From Candidatus Obscuribacterales bacterium (GTDB lineage Bacteria > Cyanobacteriota > Vampirovibrionia > Obscuribacterales > Obscuribacteraceae), in assembly GCA_031292355.1 (NCBI GenBank), contig JARLHI010000057.1:1-64000 (forward strand): DNA of 64,000 nt. The letters run 5' to 3'. Positions 16,147-22,563 of this stretch are shown one piece after another; position 1 is the stretch's first letter, and each line of letters begins with the position of its first letter. Made by a program: the position numbers and the translations under genes. The notes under the pieces were generated by a model. It made no database searches. It was not told the DNA's origin and worked only from the letters and a program-made list of their open reading frames with translations.

Positions 16147-16731
16147 ATGTCATTGAAGCTACCGACTGCGGCAACCTATTTCGCCACCCTTACATGTTTG
16201 TTATTGGGTGCGAGCACCGGGATGCTTGTTCCAAATGCGCAAGCTCAAACCGCTACGAATAAAACTATCGCTCCTGGCGATAAGGCTCCAGATTTCGAAC
16301 TGCCTTCCGAAGAAGGCAAAAAAGTGAAACCAAGCGATTTTAAAGGAAAAGTACTGGTGATTTTTTTCTATGACAAGGACAATTCTCCTGTCACCGAACA
16401 AGAATCAAAGAGAATCAAAGAGACCTATAAAAAATTGAAATTAGCAAATGCTGATGTACTGGGTGTTGGAACAGATCCTGTAGCCGCGCACAAAGCAATG
16501 CACACAAATCTGAGTCTTCAATATCATTTACTCACGGATAAAGACGACTCTGTCCGTAAAATGTACGGTCTACCAAGCAATGCAAGCGGTGCACGCGGAC
16601 GTTATGGCGTAGTCATCGATAAATCTGGCGTAGTGAAAAAAGTCGCTGGCGGCGAGCAAGGCATGTCGGACGACGACTGGAATGGCATGCTCGACTTTAT
16701 CGGCAGCATGGCTGGTGGCGCAGGTATCTAG
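16147..16731 (+). CDS. Exported peroxiredoxin-fold protein lacking the catalytic cysteine
   Basis: The 194-residue product has a signal peptide ending near PNAQA (residues 30-33) and then an AhpC/TSA-type thioredoxin fold: APGDKAPDFELPSEEGKKV, VLVIFFYDKD, LGVGTDPVAAHKAM and YHLLTDKDDSVRKMYG. In BCP-type peroxiredoxins the segment after YPKDN is TPGCT; here it is SPVT (residues 80-83, forward 16384-16395), so the peroxidatic Cys is absent. The only Cys (residue 17) is in the signal peptide. RYGVVIDKSG retains the Arg-rich strand. The protein cannot act by the normal peroxide-reducing route; it may be a structural or binding relative. A terminator at 16799-16829 ends it. Confidence 0.85.
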   Translation: MSLKLPTAATYFATLTCLLLGASTGMLVPNAQAQTATNKTIAPGDKAPDFELPSEEGKKVKPSDFKGKVLVIFFYDKDNSPVTEQESKRIKETYKKLKLANADVLGVGTDPVAAHKAMHTNLSLQYHLLTDKDDSVRKMYGLPSNASGARGRYGVVIDKSGVVKKVAGGEQGMSDDDWNGMLDFIGSMAGGAGI

Positions 16732-16847: not shown

Positions 16848-17906
16848 TCAAGCAGCAGAATCTAATCTGCCAACCTTGACAAACAGCGGAGTGACAAAAG
16901 CCTCAATCTCCGACAAATAAATGGGCTTTGAACGACGACATGCTGAAAGTATTGAGCCTACGCCCCACTTCCTTCGATTTGCAAAGCACAAATATACAGC
17001 AATATATAACTGCAAATATTTTCGAGCAATTCCATGCATTGAAGATTGGACAAAAGCGACCACTGAATGCGAATAGATTTCTTCCTCAGGAGGACAGTCT
17101 CTGTTACCAAATAGAGCTGGGACGAATATTTTGTGCTGAGGACGGACATAATTGTCTCCACTGGTGCGTTCAATTAAGCCAGCCAACTCAAGCGACGATA
17201 CGGCAGCAGAGATAACTCTAGTCTCCATGTTTAGTTGCACTTCTAGAGCGTCTAGATGTTGCGGGGATGAACTCAAGTGGTTATACACCGTCGTTTCTAT
17301 ACTCGAGAGTCCACTTAGAAGCTCATTGTGAGCGGCTATTTGTACTTCAGGAGAATTAGCAACATACTCCTCCTCGGCACATCTTTGTTCGGCACGAGGA
17401 TGTTCAAGCGCTGGTGTGCAAAGACTCCGCCTGATAAAAATTTTTGCAAATTCAGAAGAATTGAGCGTATCTTCAGCATCATTCATAGTGCGGTAGATAA
17501 GCAGTGCTACCTTTTTTACCATGCCCGTTGCGGTAGATTTAGCGATGCCAGCTAATTCTGCAAAGTGACAGGCACTGAACCTCACGCCATTTCCCAAAAG
17601 CCAAATTGCGCCCATCAGAGCTCGGATATGTCGTACATGATCGAAAAAAGATCCTGCTGTGAAGAAGAAATATTTCTTGCAGTCATTGCATTTAAATGAC
17701 CGCAGATCGACTTTTTGTGTTTTGGAGCTATTGCAGAAGTGACAAACAATAAGACCATCTTCAGCAAAACTCATAAGCAATTCTTGTATACACTCAACTT
17801 CTGTAGGGAAACGCGTTTCAAAGGCTCCCCAGAAAGAAATTGTATTAGCTCTGTCTGCGAGCCTTTCTTGTTTCTTACTTCCAGCATCCGATGCCATTCT
17901 ACTCAT
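16848..17906 (-). CDS. Transposase-derived protein: IS1595-type ends around a DprA-like winged helix
   Basis: The 352-residue protein has three recognisable parts. Residues 50-140 contain a zinc ribbon (C55xxC58 and C73xxC76) and a helical HTH (HFAELAGIAKSTATGMVKKV) as at the start of IS1595/ISXO2 transposases. Residues 197-255 (LSSIETTVYNHL, LDALEVQLNMETRVISAAVSS, LELAGLIERTSGDNYVRP) match the winged helix at the end of DprA. Residues 279-325 (HGIARKYLQLYIAVYLCFANRR) resemble the end of IS1595 transposases. The DDE catalytic core is absent; a short acidic linker replaces it. I infer a domesticated DNA-binding protein, not a mobile element. Palindromes upstream (17975-18210) are likely targets. 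No transposon ends were found. Confidence 0.7.
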   Translation of the reverse strand: MSRMASDAGSKKQERLADRANTISFWGAFETRFPTEVECIQELLMSFAEDGLIVCHFCNSSKTQKVDLRSFKCNDCKKYFFFTAGSFFDHVRHIRALMGAIWLLGNGVRFSACHFAELAGIAKSTATGMVKKVALLIYRTMNDAEDTLNSSEFAKIFIRRSLCTPALEHPRAEQRCAEEEYVANSPEVQIAAHNELLSGLSSIETTVYNHLSSSPQHLDALEVQLNMETRVISAAVSSLELAGLIERTSGDNYVRPQHKIFVPALFGNRDCPPEEEIYSHSVVAFVQSSMHGIARKYLQLYIAVYLCFANRRKWGVGSILSACRRSKPIYLSEIEAFVTPLFVKVGRLDSAA

Positions 17907-17992: not shown

Positions 17993-18120
17993 GTGAAAGA
18001 TTGGCGACTAGAAGTATTTCAACTTTTCCTAAATGAGACGAGCATACGCACAATCAGAACAGACGAAAAAGGCGCCTGAATGGCATCAAGCATGTTTTGC
18101 GACCGCCTCATTCGGATAAC

Positions 18121-18210
18121 TAGATCGAACTCGATTTAGCAGCAAAATTCTTCGACTAAATCGAACTCGATTTAACAAACGGATTCCGAAACTAAGTCGA
18201 ACTCGATTTA
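18121..18210. repeat. Three 18-bp palindromes at exactly 36-bp spacing
   Basis: The core is TAAATCGA-AC-TCGATTTA, a perfect 8-2-8 palindrome in copy 2. Copies are at 18121-18138 (TAGATCGAACTCGATTTA), 18157-18174 (perfect) and 18193-18210 (TAAGTCGAACTCGATTTA). The starts are exactly 36 bases apart; the spaces between show only loose similarity. A fourth, very degraded unit may begin near 18228. Each palindrome is preceded by AC or AAC. The constant phase, near 3.5 helical turns, suggests a multi-site binding region and not chance. It is too short and too variable in its spacers to be a CRISPR array. Confidence 0.75.
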
Positions 18211-18318
18211 GAAACACGCATTGCAACTAAACCAAAATTGAAAAAAGAAAAAAAATGTCAGGCATAGCAGTCAGAGCCCCATGTAACTCCACGCGTAATG
18301 CGCACTCTGACAAAGGTA

Positions 18319-18984
18319 CTATTGCGAACACAACAAAAAAATTCTGATTAATTCGTCGAGTACTCGTTTGAATTCAAACGGAAACAATTTCTTACCATGC
18401 AGAATATGTTGTTGCACGCAATAATGTATTATTGCCCCAGCGAATACCCGCGCAAAAGCCTCTGGATCGGGCAAATGAATATCAGGATGATTACTCAAAT
18501 AATCAATTAGTAACTTACATCCGGGTTTGATAGTTGCCTCCGTGTAAAGCTCCGCCAACTTAGGAAACCGCCCGGATTCACCAATGGTCGTCCGAAAAAG
18601 TTTGGTGAAACCAGCATCAAATTGTCTGGATGCAAGCGCATCTGCAAAAGACCGCAACACCTGCTCGGGTGTCTGCTTTGCCACTTCTTCCTTTGTGAAG
18701 ATATGTTGGACATGGTCGATAGTAATTGATCCAATTACACTGACAAATAGGTCCTCTTTATCTCGAAAATGACTGTAGATGGTTTGCTTAATAACACCCG
18801 CTCGTTGCGCCACGAGATTCATAGTCGTCCTCTCATAGCCAAGCTCTAAAAAGGCTTCCAGGGCAGCATTAATGATCTGTTCCCGCTTTCTCTTCGAGAA
18901 TTCAGATAGAGAGGGCTCTTCGGATTGAAGAGCTATCTTTTTCACCCGCGTGCTCAGCTGGATTGATGCTTTCTTAGACGACAT
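18319..18984 (-). CDS. TetR-family transcriptional repressor
   Basis: The 221-residue protein has the TetR helix-turn-helix near the N-terminus: FSKRKREQIINAALEAFLEL, then NLVAQRAGVIKQTIYSHFRDKEDLF (about residues 28-82). The C-terminal ligand-binding part is diverse, as usual, with a segment similar to the AefR-like C-terminal domain (LYTEATIKPGCKLLIDYL). A Lys-rich 25-residue extension precedes the HTH. It is divergent from the five-gene efflux operon, 79 bases away, with a perfect palindrome between them, so it most likely represses the exporter and itself and is relieved by the exported compound. Confidence 0.92.
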   Translation of the reverse strand: MSSKKASIQLSTRVKKIALQSEEPSLSEFSKRKREQIINAALEAFLELGYERTTMNLVAQRAGVIKQTIYSHFRDKEDLFVSVIGSITIDHVQHIFTKEEVAKQTPEQVLRSFADALASRQFDAGFTKLFRTTIGESGRFPKLAELYTEATIKPGCKLLIDYLSNHPDIHLPDPEAFARVFAGAIIHYCVQQHILHGKKLFPFEFKRVLDELIRIFLLCSQ

Positions 18985-19010
18985 TAAGTCTGCGCACTCC
19001 CTGAATTACT

Positions 19011-19028
19011 TCATACCAGTTGGTATGA
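19011..19028. promoter_or_regulatory. 18-bp perfect palindromic operator between TetR and efflux operon
   Basis: TCATACCAGTTGGTATGA is a perfect 8-2-8 palindrome 26 bases before the tetR start codon and 35 bases before the hlyD-like start codon. Its place between divergent repressor and target genes makes it the likely TetR operator for both directions. Confidence 0.82.
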
Positions 19029-19063
19029 TACAACTTTAGCTCGCATTGTAAGGAAGTGGATCA

Positions 19064-20587
19064 ATGTCTGATAGTGCAAATACCCCAGGTCAAAGGGGCG
19101 CACAGTCTGGGAAGCAGGATGGTATCACTGATAACACTGAGCAAGATAAAAACAACCAAACACAAAGTAAGTCACCTCAGCAATTGCCGCAGCAACCGGC
19201 CCAAATCCAGTCAGCCGAATCGGCTAAGCAAACTCAACTCTCGGCCCAATCTCAAACAGGCGTTGTCGATTCACCCCCAAAGAGAGAATCTGATGCGTCA
19301 AGCGAACATGCACAAACCAAGAAAAAAAAGGAGGGAGACGGCGGCAACAAAGCAAACGGCGCAAGCAAAACGAAATCGCCAAAACCAATAATCATTTTAG
19401 TTGTAGTTATAGCTCTCGTTGCACTAGTTGCATTTCAATTGTTCCGCAATAAGCCTGAAGGAAAAGCTGGCTGGCTCCGCATTAATGGGCGTATCGAAGG
19501 TTACGAAGTAAACGTGGGTGCAAAAATTGCCGGCCGAGTAGAATTCATCTCCAATCGCGAAGGCGATGAAGTGAAATACCAGCAGCCGCTCGTCAAGTTG
19601 AGCGACGAGGACATCAGAGCCCAGCTCAGAGGCGCAAAAGCTCGTTACGAAGGTGCTCTCAATGCAGTGCAGGAAGCAGAAGCCCTGGTCAACGTCTCGA
19701 GAGAACAGGTAGAACAGGCAAAGCTCAACGTCACTCAATCGCAAGAGGATGCTCGAGGAAGAATAGATCAAGCCGATGCCAACCTTGCTTCTCAAAAGGC
19801 TCAATTGAGCCAAGCCATTGCACAAGAAGTGCAAGCGAAGGCTGATCTGGCACTAGCAGCGGTGCGTCAAAAACGTTACGACGAACTTGTTGTTAAAGGA
19901 GCAGTAACCCAAGACGAAGACGATCAGGCGCACAGCACTTTCGAAAGCACCAAAGCGACTGTTGATGCTCGTACTGCCGCAGTAGTCTCGGCCAGACGCC
20001 AGGTGTCGGCGGCTGAAGCTGCCCTGGTGCAGGCAAAAAGCAACGCTTTCAATCCACCAATTAGGATGAGCCAGCAAGTTTCCAGTTCGCGCACTGTGTC
20101 TCAAAACGAAGCGGCTTTGATGCGTGCTCGCCACGACGTCAAGAACGCCAAAGCATCGATAGAGGAGATTGAATCCAATATTGCCTATCTCAATATCAAC
20201 AGTCCTATTCATGGTGTTGTAACAGCACGCACAGTCGAGCCAGGCGCGGTTGTTGCTGCCGGACAAACGGTAATTTCGCTGATTAATTTAGATACAGTCT
20301 ATCTAAGAGCATATGTTCCAGATAGTGAAATTGGCAAAGTACGCCTTCGTCAAAAGGCACTTATTTACTACGATTCCGACCACACCCATGGAATATCCGG
20401 AAAAGTAATTGAAATTGACCCAGAGGCTAGTTTCACTCCGGAAAATATCTACTTCAGAGATGACCGGGTCAAACAAGTTTTCGGCATCAAGATTCTCATC
20501 GACAATCCCTCCAATTATGCAAAGCCCGGCATGCCAGCCGACGCCGATATCGATATTTCGGAAAAATCAGGAGCAACGAATTCTTGA
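19064..20587 (+). CDS. HlyD/EmrA-like periplasmic adaptor of an ABC efflux pump
   Basis: The 507-residue protein has a Gln/Ser/Lys-rich cytoplasmic N-terminus (about 1-105), a single membrane segment PIIILVVVIALVALVAFQLF (about 107-128), then an adaptor body. The barrel half INGRIEGYEVNVGAKIAGRV and the biotinyl-lipoyl half NINSPIHGVVTARTVEPGAV bracket a long Ala/Gln-rich coiled coil (about 165-350). The coiled coil has ASLEQAI-like repeats and DEDDQAHSTFESTKATVD. It begins at ATG 19064 after AAGGAAG. In the five-gene operon it should link the inner-membrane ABC unit to the TolC-like channel. The long disordered N-terminus is unusual for this family. Confidence 0.93.
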   Translation: MSDSANTPGQRGAQSGKQDGITDNTEQDKNNQTQSKSPQQLPQQPAQIQSAESAKQTQLSAQSQTGVVDSPPKRESDASSEHAQTKKKKEGDGGNKANGASKTKSPKPIIILVVVIALVALVAFQLFRNKPEGKAGWLRINGRIEGYEVNVGAKIAGRVEFISNREGDEVKYQQPLVKLSDEDIRAQLRGAKARYEGALNAVQEAEALVNVSREQVEQAKLNVTQSQEDARGRIDQADANLASQKAQLSQAIAQEVQAKADLALAAVRQKRYDELVVKGAVTQDEDDQAHSTFESTKATVDARTAAVVSARRQVSAAEAALVQAKSNAFNPPIRMSQQVSSSRTVSQNEAALMRARHDVKNAKASIEEIESNIAYLNINSPIHGVVTARTVEPGAVVAAGQTVISLINLDTVYLRAYVPDSEIGKVRLRQKALIYYDSDHTHGISGKVIEIDPEASFTPENIYFRDDRVKQVFGIKILIDNPSNYAKPGMPADADIDISEKSGATNS

Positions 20588-22563
20588 ACGGTGTCGACAT
20601 GCCGAATACAGCAAGCCAAGATAATGTCTCATCAACTGCAGCCGATGATGAGTCGAATATTGTCATACATGTTGACGGCTTCAAAAAGAATTACGGTGAA
20701 TTTGAAGCCGTCAAAGGTATTTCTTTCGAAGTAAAAAAGGGCGAAATCTTTGGTCTGATCGGACCAGATGGTGCCGGCAAAACGAGCACATTCCATGTCC
20801 TTGGCGGAGTTATGAATGCCACCGCTGGCAATATTACCATTCTCAATCAATCTCCACGTGATGCGCGAAAACAACTGGGCTATTTGACGCAGCAATTTTC
20901 TCTCCATTTAGATTTGAGTATTCAGGAAAACCTCGAATATAGCGCTGGCGTTCGCGAAGTTTCAACGGAAAAATTTCAAGAAAGAAGCGAGCGCTACTTA
21001 AAGCTAATGGATCTCGCAAAATTCAGACAGAGGCTTGCCGGTCAGCTGTCGGGAGGGATGAAACAAAAGCTCGCATTATGTTGCGCCCTCGTATCTGCGC
21101 CCAATATTTTACTTCTTGACGAACCAACAACTGGAGTCGATCCTGTCTCGCGCCGCGAATTCTGGGATGTTCTTGCAGAAGTTTCTGCCGAGGGCGTGAC
21201 GACGGCTGTAGCCACTCCATATTTGGATGAAGCGGAAAGATGCAACCGAGTAGCCCTCATGTACGAAGGGACAATCACGGAGCTTGGCACACCAAAAGAA
21301 TTGATAGCCAAATTGCACATGCACAGATTGGAAATTCGCTCGAACAGAATTGAACTGCTTGAGACGGCGCTAAACAAGAGCGCCAAGCAAAACCAAGCGA
21401 TAATTAATGACATTCAGGAATTCGGCGACCGGCTTGATGTACTGGTCTCAGAGGTAGAGTCTGGCAAAGCCGCTGTCTTAAAATCGGCTGCAGAAAACAA
21501 TATAGAGCCACCGGAAATTGAAGTTTCCGAACCCAATCTGGAAAACGTATTTGTCAGCAAGCTCAAAGGGACAGCAAGTGAAAAGGGCGGAGAAAAGCAA
21601 TTTCACTTTCAAAAACACGCTCAGACACCGGGTACAGTGGCTATCGGCGCGGATCAGATTGCTATTCACTTCGGAGATTTTCAGGCGGTCAAATCCGTCA
21701 GTCTGAAAGTCGAATACGGAGAAATTTATGGATTGCTAGGCGCAAATGGTGCAGGCAAAACCACAACTATCAAAATGCTTTGCGGTTTACTAACGCCAAG
21801 TTCTGGCTCGATGACGTTGGCCGGCTCAAAAAGTGATTTGCGCAGCTCGCAACTGCGCAAAAAGATCGGCTACATGAGCCAAAAATTCACACTCTACGAC
21901 GATCTTAGCATCAAGGAAAATCTCGAATTTTATTGTGGTGTCTATGATGTTCCTCGCGATCAACGTCAGGAAAAAATGGATTGGGTTCTGGAGACATGTG
22001 GTCTCAAGGGACAAGAAGCATTGCTGACTAGGTCTTTGCCTGGCGGCTGGAAGCAGCGACTATCGTTTGGTGCATCGGTAATGCATCAACCGGAGATTCT
22101 ATTTTTAGATGAACCGACTTCAGGCGTCGACCCGCTAGCGCGGCGACAACTATGGCGCTTAATCAGGCAGTTTGCTCGAAATGGCACTGCGGTATTAGTA
22201 ACCACGCACTTTTTAGAAGAAGCAGAGCATTGCCAGAAACTGGCCTTCATGGTGGCAGGAGAAATCGTCGCCGAAGGAACGCCGTCAGAAATTAAAACCA
22301 GTCAACCAGGCAAGTTAATTGAAATTTCTACAGATAACACGCGAAAAGCAGCACAAGTCGTTCGGCAGACTCTGGATGCCTGGAAAGTAGCTATCTTCGC
22401 AGATAATCTGCATCTCAATCTTGAAAATCCCGATCAAGAATTACCAAAAATTCAACAACAGCTGCAGCTGGCTGGAGTCCGCTTGAATTCGCAACGACAA
22501 ATTCCATTTTCACTTGAAGATGCATTCATTGGTATTGTGCAAAGAGCGAGCGCAGACGACTGA
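20584..22563 (+). CDS. Double ABC ATPase of the efflux pump (YbhF-like)
   Basis: The 659-residue protein carries two ATPase domains in tandem. Domain 1 (about 15-330) has Walker A GPDGAGKTST, signature LSGGMKQKLA and Walker B ILLLDEPTTGVD, but its H-loop is ATPYLDEAE, with Pro where His is expected. Domain 2 (about 355-655) has GANGAGKTTT, signature LPGGWKQRL, Walker B ILFLDEPTSGVD and a normal TTHFLEEAEHC. So domain 1 is likely less active and domain 2 the main hydrolysing site, as in the YbhF-type exporters. The start (TTG or GTG region before MNGVDMPNTAS at 20584) overlaps the adaptor gene by 4 bases and the product is made from one message. Confidence 0.94.
   Translation: MNGVDMPNTASQDNVSSTAADDESNIVIHVDGFKKNYGEFEAVKGISFEVKKGEIFGLIGPDGAGKTSTFHVLGGVMNATAGNITILNQSPRDARKQLGYLTQQFSLHLDLSIQENLEYSAGVREVSTEKFQERSERYLKLMDLAKFRQRLAGQLSGGMKQKLALCCALVSAPNILLLDEPTTGVDPVSRREFWDVLAEVSAEGVTTAVATPYLDEAERCNRVALMYEGTITELGTPKELIAKLHMHRLEIRSNRIELLETALNKSAKQNQAIINDIQEFGDRLDVLVSEVESGKAAVLKSAAENNIEPPEIEVSEPNLENVFVSKLKGTASEKGGEKQFHFQKHAQTPGTVAIGADQIAIHFGDFQAVKSVSLKVEYGEIYGLLGANGAGKTTTIKMLCGLLTPSSGSMTLAGSKSDLRSSQLRKKIGYMSQKFTLYDDLSIKENLEFYCGVYDVPRDQRQEKMDWVLETCGLKGQEALLTRSLPGGWKQRLSFGASVMHQPEILFLDEPTSGVDPLARRQLWRLIRQFARNGTAVLVTTHFLEEAEHCQKLAFMVAGEIVAEGTPSEIKTSQPGKLIEISTDNTRKAAQVVRQTLDAWKVAIFADNLHLNLENPDQELPKIQQQLQLAGVRLNSQRQIPFSLEDAFIGIVQRASADD

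Follow-up and report, generated by a model that had tools for sequence, protein, structure and literature searches.

What does a protein that begins and ends like an IS1595 transposase do when a winged helix stands where the catalytic domain belongs? This question is raised by a gene in the window, by which we mean the whole stretch of 64,000 nucleotides that was analysed, itself part of contig C9 in a 6.6 Mb genome. A sequence-only reading had seen here a domesticated transposase turned into a DNA-binding regulator; it gave no strand for 16848-17906, and it noted neither the palindromes nor the expansion of paralogs, nor that the host DprA is the likely source of the winged helix. A plus-strand reading of these positions contains 16 stops and was ruled out; the gene lies on the minus strand (Table 1).

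Table 1. Coordinates of the gene, its protein parts, its convergent neighbour and its presumed sites
Feature	Position in window	Strand	Remarks
CDS, IS1595-derived protein with DprA-type winged helix	16848..17906	-	352 aa
Zinc ribbon, residues 53-89	17640..17750	-	C55, C58, C73, C76; R69 invariant across family
IS1595 helix-turn-helix region, residues 94-140	17487..17627	-	profile comparison with IS1595
Junction segment, residues 142-197	17316..17483	-	family motif S..F...f.kRS..T...HP..E, then variable linker
DprA-type winged helix, residues 198-256	17139..17315	-	Pfam PF17782 and host DprA match
IS1595 C-terminal end, residues 279-338	16893..17072	-	motif GISRKYLQ.YLA..W....W....LL..C....P
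AhpC/TSA peroxiredoxin, convergent neighbour	16147..16731	+	117 bp tail to tail; arrangement typical of family
Palindrome 1, CTAGATCGAACTCGATTTAG, presumed binding site (no binding data)	18120..18139	.	3 sites vs 0.05 expected
Palindrome 2, CTAAATCGAACTCGATTTAA, presumed binding site (no binding data)	18156..18175	.	
Palindrome 3, CTAAGTCGAACTCGATTTAG, presumed binding site (no binding data)	18192..18211	.	

Transposase ends around a DprA-type winged helix

The Pfam domain DprA_WH (PF17782) matched residues 198-250 of the protein above the curated cut-off (E 9.6e-10), whereas single-sequence matches to the two ends were weak and below the cut-off, namely Zn_ribbon_IS1595 of Pfam (residues 35-78, E 0.029) and transpos_IS1595 of NCBIfam (residues 284-312, E 0.056). 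Pfam searches found neither the DDE/RNase-H core (PF12762) nor the DNA_processg_A Rossmann domain (PF02481), and gave no HUH/Y1 transposase, ParB or MatP match. PADLOC returned nothing for the protein, and a defence system was set aside. In contrast to the weak single-sequence matches, a family profile built from 43 relatives and then run on intact IS1595 transposases made the identity of the ends unambiguous. The SAR324 transposase L145 was matched in two collinear pieces, at about 24-137 (E 7e-20) and 286-344 (E 3.5e-11); L146 gave the same two pieces (profile positions 24-137 and 286-344), and a two-piece match was likewise seen for many other IS1595 transposases from the bacterial class of the window genome. 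Both elements (SAR324, deltaproteobacterial) carry PF12760 and PF12762. Segment by segment, hhalign aligned the N-terminal end of the family with the zinc ribbon and helix-turn-helix (HTH) of IS1595 at 99.8% (E 5e-28) and its C-terminal end with the part that follows the core at 98.4% (E 1e-14); the comparison of the family middle with the DDE core gave 0.4%, i.e. nothing, and no similarity to the core was detectable in the junction segment either. The architecture proposed from the letters alone, transposase ends with a DprA-like winged helix in the place of the core, is thus observed; the likeness attributed to the first 140 residues holds from about residue 25 onwards, the residues before it being a variable extension foreign to the transposase.

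The same combination of likeness and loss appears when the protein is set beside its two presumed parents. It shares with IS1595 transposases (ISCsp2/ISKpn3-like; PF12760 and PF12762) the N-terminal zinc ribbon and HTH and a C-terminal H-G-[VI]-S-R-K-Y-L-Q block, and differs from them by the absent DDE/RNase-H core; it shares with DprA (Smf), the DNA recombination-mediator protein A, the C-terminal winged helix but not the Rossmann domain. An AlphaFold (AF2) model of the window protein (mean pLDDT 93.6, pTM 0.86) confined strands to the zinc ribbon, the wing and short segments, and the RNase-H fold was missing. Foldseek against the PDB gave no match at E<=0.001 and no whole-chain match, only partial winged-helix ones, and a single known fold over the whole chain was dismissed. 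An intact IS1595 transposase of the window genome, at a contig end (G000:C28:7355-7813, L047), is related to the family only distantly.

The winged helix of the family is close to that of DprA from its own host lineage (E about 1e-23 to 1e-29): it scores at least 71 bits with DprA of the same bacterial family, vs 28-60 bits with DprA outside. In a winged-helix tree, DprA of this bacterial family formed a near-clade (0.88), the domain being too short for resolution. The true DprA of the window genome, L007, has its DNA_processg_A Rossmann domain. Judging from these sequence comparisons, the host's own DprA is likely to be the source. A DprA winged helix also forms the C-terminal part of HigA-like or XRE-type HTH proteins in related genomes (L260:1175-1753, L261:1262-1816, L263:878-1441, L262:780-1379), and these fusions support the use of the winged helix as a module of DNA-binding proteins; no HigB toxin was seen among the few neighbours inspected. 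We also noted half versions, with the winged helix and IS1595 C-terminal end only or with the gene split between its N and C parts (L264:931-1422, L265:961-1476, L266:805-1657).

Distribution and vertical inheritance of the family

The same architecture was sought in other genomes and found in at least 122 distinct proteins from many of them. A recently decayed IS1595 pseudogene or a chimeric assembly artefact, for which nothing speaks but the hybrid domain make-up, is excluded as a chance event by this number, and the conserved synteny and low dN/dS described below leave it with virtually no standing. The proteins form an undescribed family confined to Obscuribacteraceae: no paper on it was found in a literature search. 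It is present in most large Obscuribacteraceae genomes, with up to 23 matches per genome and about 20 divergent paralogs in Candidatus Obscuribacter. Weak matches elsewhere in the class stayed at the level expected of DprA or IS1595 alone, and a phylum sample of 386 genomes held none at 1e-25 except in the window's own genome. When 84,980 species genomes were scanned for the pattern, nearly all records retrieved were from Obscuribacterales, apart from two intact IS1595 transposases and one short Chloroflexi-labelled contig. That contig, 3.7 kb long and from a MAG, holds a family member (L123), and a binning error is likely. The genomes are mostly MAGs and the gene calls are mechanical.

Between the congeneric Obscuribacter genomes G027 and G035, nearly all paralogs of G027 have a one-to-one ortholog with 65-80% identity and kept neighbours, while paralogs inside that genome are mostly 27-40% identical; the window gene and its best paralog in the same genome share 40%. 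Seventeen ortholog pairs with dS below about 1.1 gave dN/dS values of 0.13-0.27, and conservation between orthologs was highest in the HTH (identity 0.92) and zinc ribbon (0.89), with free linkers. Vertical inheritance and purifying selection are therefore observed, and together with the absence of a terminal-repeat pair they indicate that the family is domesticated, as had been suspected, and not mobile. Around the window gene the best terminal inverted repeat matched at 15 of 20 positions, against a random expectation of 14 (maximum 16), while intact IS1595 elements reached 16-19 in several cases. No near-identical dispersed copies were found, and mobility was rejected on both grounds. Fixed syntenic positions without repeats or such copies set the family apart from IS1595 transposases; the one exception among ten family genes is L124, which has its own palindrome on both sides. 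The sequence-only reading had named two results that would refute it, one continuous known fold in a structure model and homologues with an intact DDE core and inverted repeats on both sides, and neither was obtained.

Family genes mostly stand tail to tail with their neighbour (58/65 vs 133/407 other genes; on more genomes 79/97 vs 50% for non-operonic genes), in counts that are not phylogenetically independent. A conserved operon partner was rejected, as neighbours recur solely through orthologous synteny. One family gene of G027 (L234:6038-8410, contig C2) is broken into two ORFs, of 131 and 253 aa, with about 1.2 kb between them, and its G035 ortholog L240 is intact.

Palindromes upstream of the genes and at a distance

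The three palindromes of the window, CTAAATCGANNTCGATTTAG, lie 36 bp apart and 214 bp upstream of the start codon. Within one mismatch, the genome holds two more at C9:76776-76866 (about 12776-12866 of L151), where a third copy has two mismatches, and a single one on contig C32. This second triplet is 58 kb away between convergent genes, and six of the seven best genome sites fall in the two triplets on C9. A gene reading like rsmG adjoins it. In the window the half-site reads TCGATTTAG, in keeping with TCGGTTTAG for the family. When all positions of the window are ranked with the family matrix, two of the three sites come second and fourth, with absolute scores no higher than the best of shuffled windows; the window sites score only moderately, and their centre is imperfect. 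Upstream site pairs 36-38 bp apart also occur at L152 and L153, two of this genome's three other full-length paralogs, and L154, the remaining one of the four family genes there, has no upstream site. The window triplet lies at the 3' end of an adjoining TetR-family gene, and TetR is not excluded as its binder; no tetR is found among the genes beside the second triplet. The region 18319-22563 reads as a TetR regulator (AefR-like), an HlyD-like membrane fusion protein and a double ABC ATPase, probably an export operon, and similar ABC genes occur near family members in L089, L104 and L108.

Across the family, palindromes of 28-36 bp, often perfect, lie upstream of the genes at a median position of -97. 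By a fixed criterion such a palindrome precedes 74 of 122 family genes, vs 13 of 401 other genes and 1 of 122 shuffled regions; about 40% of the family genes showed no clear dyad by this criterion. The association of family genes with upstream palindromes, which is new in this analysis, is directly observed. The consensus combines the core ACCGATATCGGT with gene-specific arms, each half reading A-T-C-G-G-T-T-n-A-n-n-T-T-[TC]. Arms differ between paralogs and agree between orthologs (e.g. L217/L237 and L225/L247), and changes in the arms of L115, L116 and L125 are symmetrical, i.e. compensated. When protein columns were compared with the half-site for covariation, the signal did not cluster in the HTH or the winged helix, an uninformative result with only 54 effective sequences.

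The core occurs in 78 and 77 copies in two Obscuribacter genomes, vs 0 and 1 for a reversed control, in 27 copies in G005 and in 11 in G006, where 8 of the 11 are just upstream of family genes. Of nine genomes with family members that were checked, eight had 4-78 sites and the ninth (G012) a single one despite its family genes; three genomes without family members had 0, 1 and 0. If the palindromes acted as RNA between genes, as bidirectional terminators or hairpins, their link with the family would be incidental; the A-run/stem/T-run shape of some sites, their place at gene ends and the tail-to-tail arrangement of the family genes are compatible with this. Such an explanation is nevertheless very improbable in view of the shared core with gene-specific arms, the near absence from the three related genomes without the family and the sites about 100 bp upstream of starts, divergent intergenic regions included.

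Copies with the same arms recur at 2-60 kb from a family gene; an exact second copy of one 28-bp palindrome lies at a distance of 16.5 kb, and that of another at 19 kb. For ten family genes of G027 and the 25 non-self sites up to 60 kb from them, the arms matched those of the nearest family gene best (mean rank 0.86 vs 4.5 by chance), and a label permutation gave P = 5e-5, the smallest value that the test could give. Arm matching is thus observed to be specific to the paralog. Of 117 strong dyads at 96 loci, 60 are found no more than 250 bp upstream of the family gene and about 50 elsewhere, whereas control loci totalling 161 kb contained none. Since upstream sites had served to train the matrix, independent evidence comes only from the distant sites and the control. 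We also observed a tandem array of the core with a 40-bp period, in which one arm is unpaired (GGTTGAAATC...) and part of the sequence is masked as N (L314:6280-6500, G027:C1:478761-478993), and three palindromes 90 bp apart that fall within a predicted ORF and may represent a coding tandem repeat (L375:18591-18771).

Palindromes tied to a stably inherited transposase relative, some of them flanking its gene, are known from RAYT/TnpA-REP, as far as the accessible parts of the sources tell (PMC8266576, PMC8049555). By analogy, the palindromes could be dispersed repeats once spread by the transposase lineage, and the protein a relic that maintains or represses them without regulatory role. Family and palindromes do co-occur, the palindromes are dispersed, intergenic and like IS1595 terminal repeats, and some family genes have them on both sides. 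However, the family derives from IS1595 and not from HUH/Y1 enzymes, no catalytic domain is detectable in it, the sites are few per paralog, with gene-specific arms in which symmetrical changes are kept, and their spread is local rather than genome-wide. We regard a relic of this kind as improbable.

The position of the sites raises a more serious objection to a regulator. Most of them are intergenic, since predicted genes contain 28% of the sites vs 82% of positions, and convergent intergenic regions are over-represented (7 of 39 sites vs 2.9% of sampled positions). This distribution speaks against an exclusive role at promoters; several of the distant sites, being placed between convergent genes or within predicted ORFs, are not in ordinary promoters. 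Each paralog might instead bind clustered palindromes over about 40-60 kb and structure that domain in the manner of ParB/parS or MatP/matS, with no promoter switching. Sparse cognate sites that flank the gene on either side and form pairs or triplets with a spacing of 36-40 bp would suit such a chromosome-organising or segregation-type protein, and the convergent and distant sites make chromosome-domain organisation the main rival. It remains unlikely in our judgement: most strong dyads are directly upstream of family genes, copy number is highly variable among genomes, and no conserved partner gene was seen beside family genes, although ParA/SMC-like partners were not specifically sought.

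Possible roles of the protein-palindrome pairs

We propose, with a probability of roughly 60%, that the family consists of paralog-specific DNA-binding autoregulators derived from an IS1595 transposase and provided with local site sets, binding and regulation both being inferred. The transposase would have lost its RNase-H/DDE core, the winged helix of the host DprA filling the gap, and would have retained the C-terminal helices and the zinc ribbon and HTH that bind transposon ends. Duplication within Obscuribacteraceae may then have turned it into a whole family of sequence-specific DNA binders. Each paralog is inferred to bind its own palindrome directly, probably as a dimer on two head-to-head half-sites, TATCGGTTTAGCT, resembling an old terminal inverted repeat; binding about 100 bp upstream of its own gene would result in autoregulation, and further cognate sites within tens of kb would form a local site set or regulon. 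For the window gene, the presumed sites are the upstream palindromes and the distant triplet. Of the regulator first suggested, DNA binding is well supported, indirectly, by the cognate palindromes, while control of transcription and its outcome are only inferred. As in one-component regulators (MarR/XRE-like), a protein of winged helix/HTH type is paired here with a palindrome that precedes its gene, and XRE/HigA-like proteins of these bacteria can carry the same winged helix; unlike one-component regulators, the family has a transposase-derived scaffold, unusually long (28-36 bp) perfect palindromes and many parallel paralog-site pairs.

The half-site resembles the terminal repeats of some IS1595 elements, which read, from the outer end inward, TATCNNNTTAGCTCC in L387, L388 and L396, with variants in L146, L386, L390 and L398. 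The ends of L146 score 13.2 and 10.5 bits, as high as family half-sites (median 12.3), and ISCsp2-type ends up to 7.5 bits, vs 5.9 and 8.7 bits for the 95% and 99% levels of random 36-mers; the terminal repeats of other IS1595 elements showed no match to the half-site, so only some match well. In intact elements the left end is 26-108 bp upstream of the gene. From this likeness, the gene-proximal half of the palindrome may be seen as the old left end, and the whole palindrome as two ends abutted by their outer sides, which is suggestive and not proven. One could go further and imagine that each genome holds about 20 mutually orthogonal pairs of protein and palindrome, the outcome of a radiation of catalytically dead transposases, and that every pair labels a chromosomal neighbourhood of its own, 40-60 kb in extent, through sites made of two outward-joined fossil transposon ends, so that an insertion sequence would have provided an address system for chromosomal domains; we consider this a doubtful speculation.

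Domesticated transposases that became DNA-binding proteins are familiar in eukaryotes. The bacterial example found in the literature, RAYT, retains a catalytic domain, whereas here the core is gone and a winged helix of the host stands in its place. For Obscuribacter, about which little regulation is described in the literature found, the family offers candidate regulators together with their site sets. It also offers a directly testable case of a transposon end turned operator, and its radiated paralogs, with readable paralog-specific DNA sites, would constitute a rare natural series on how protein-DNA specificity splits after duplication.
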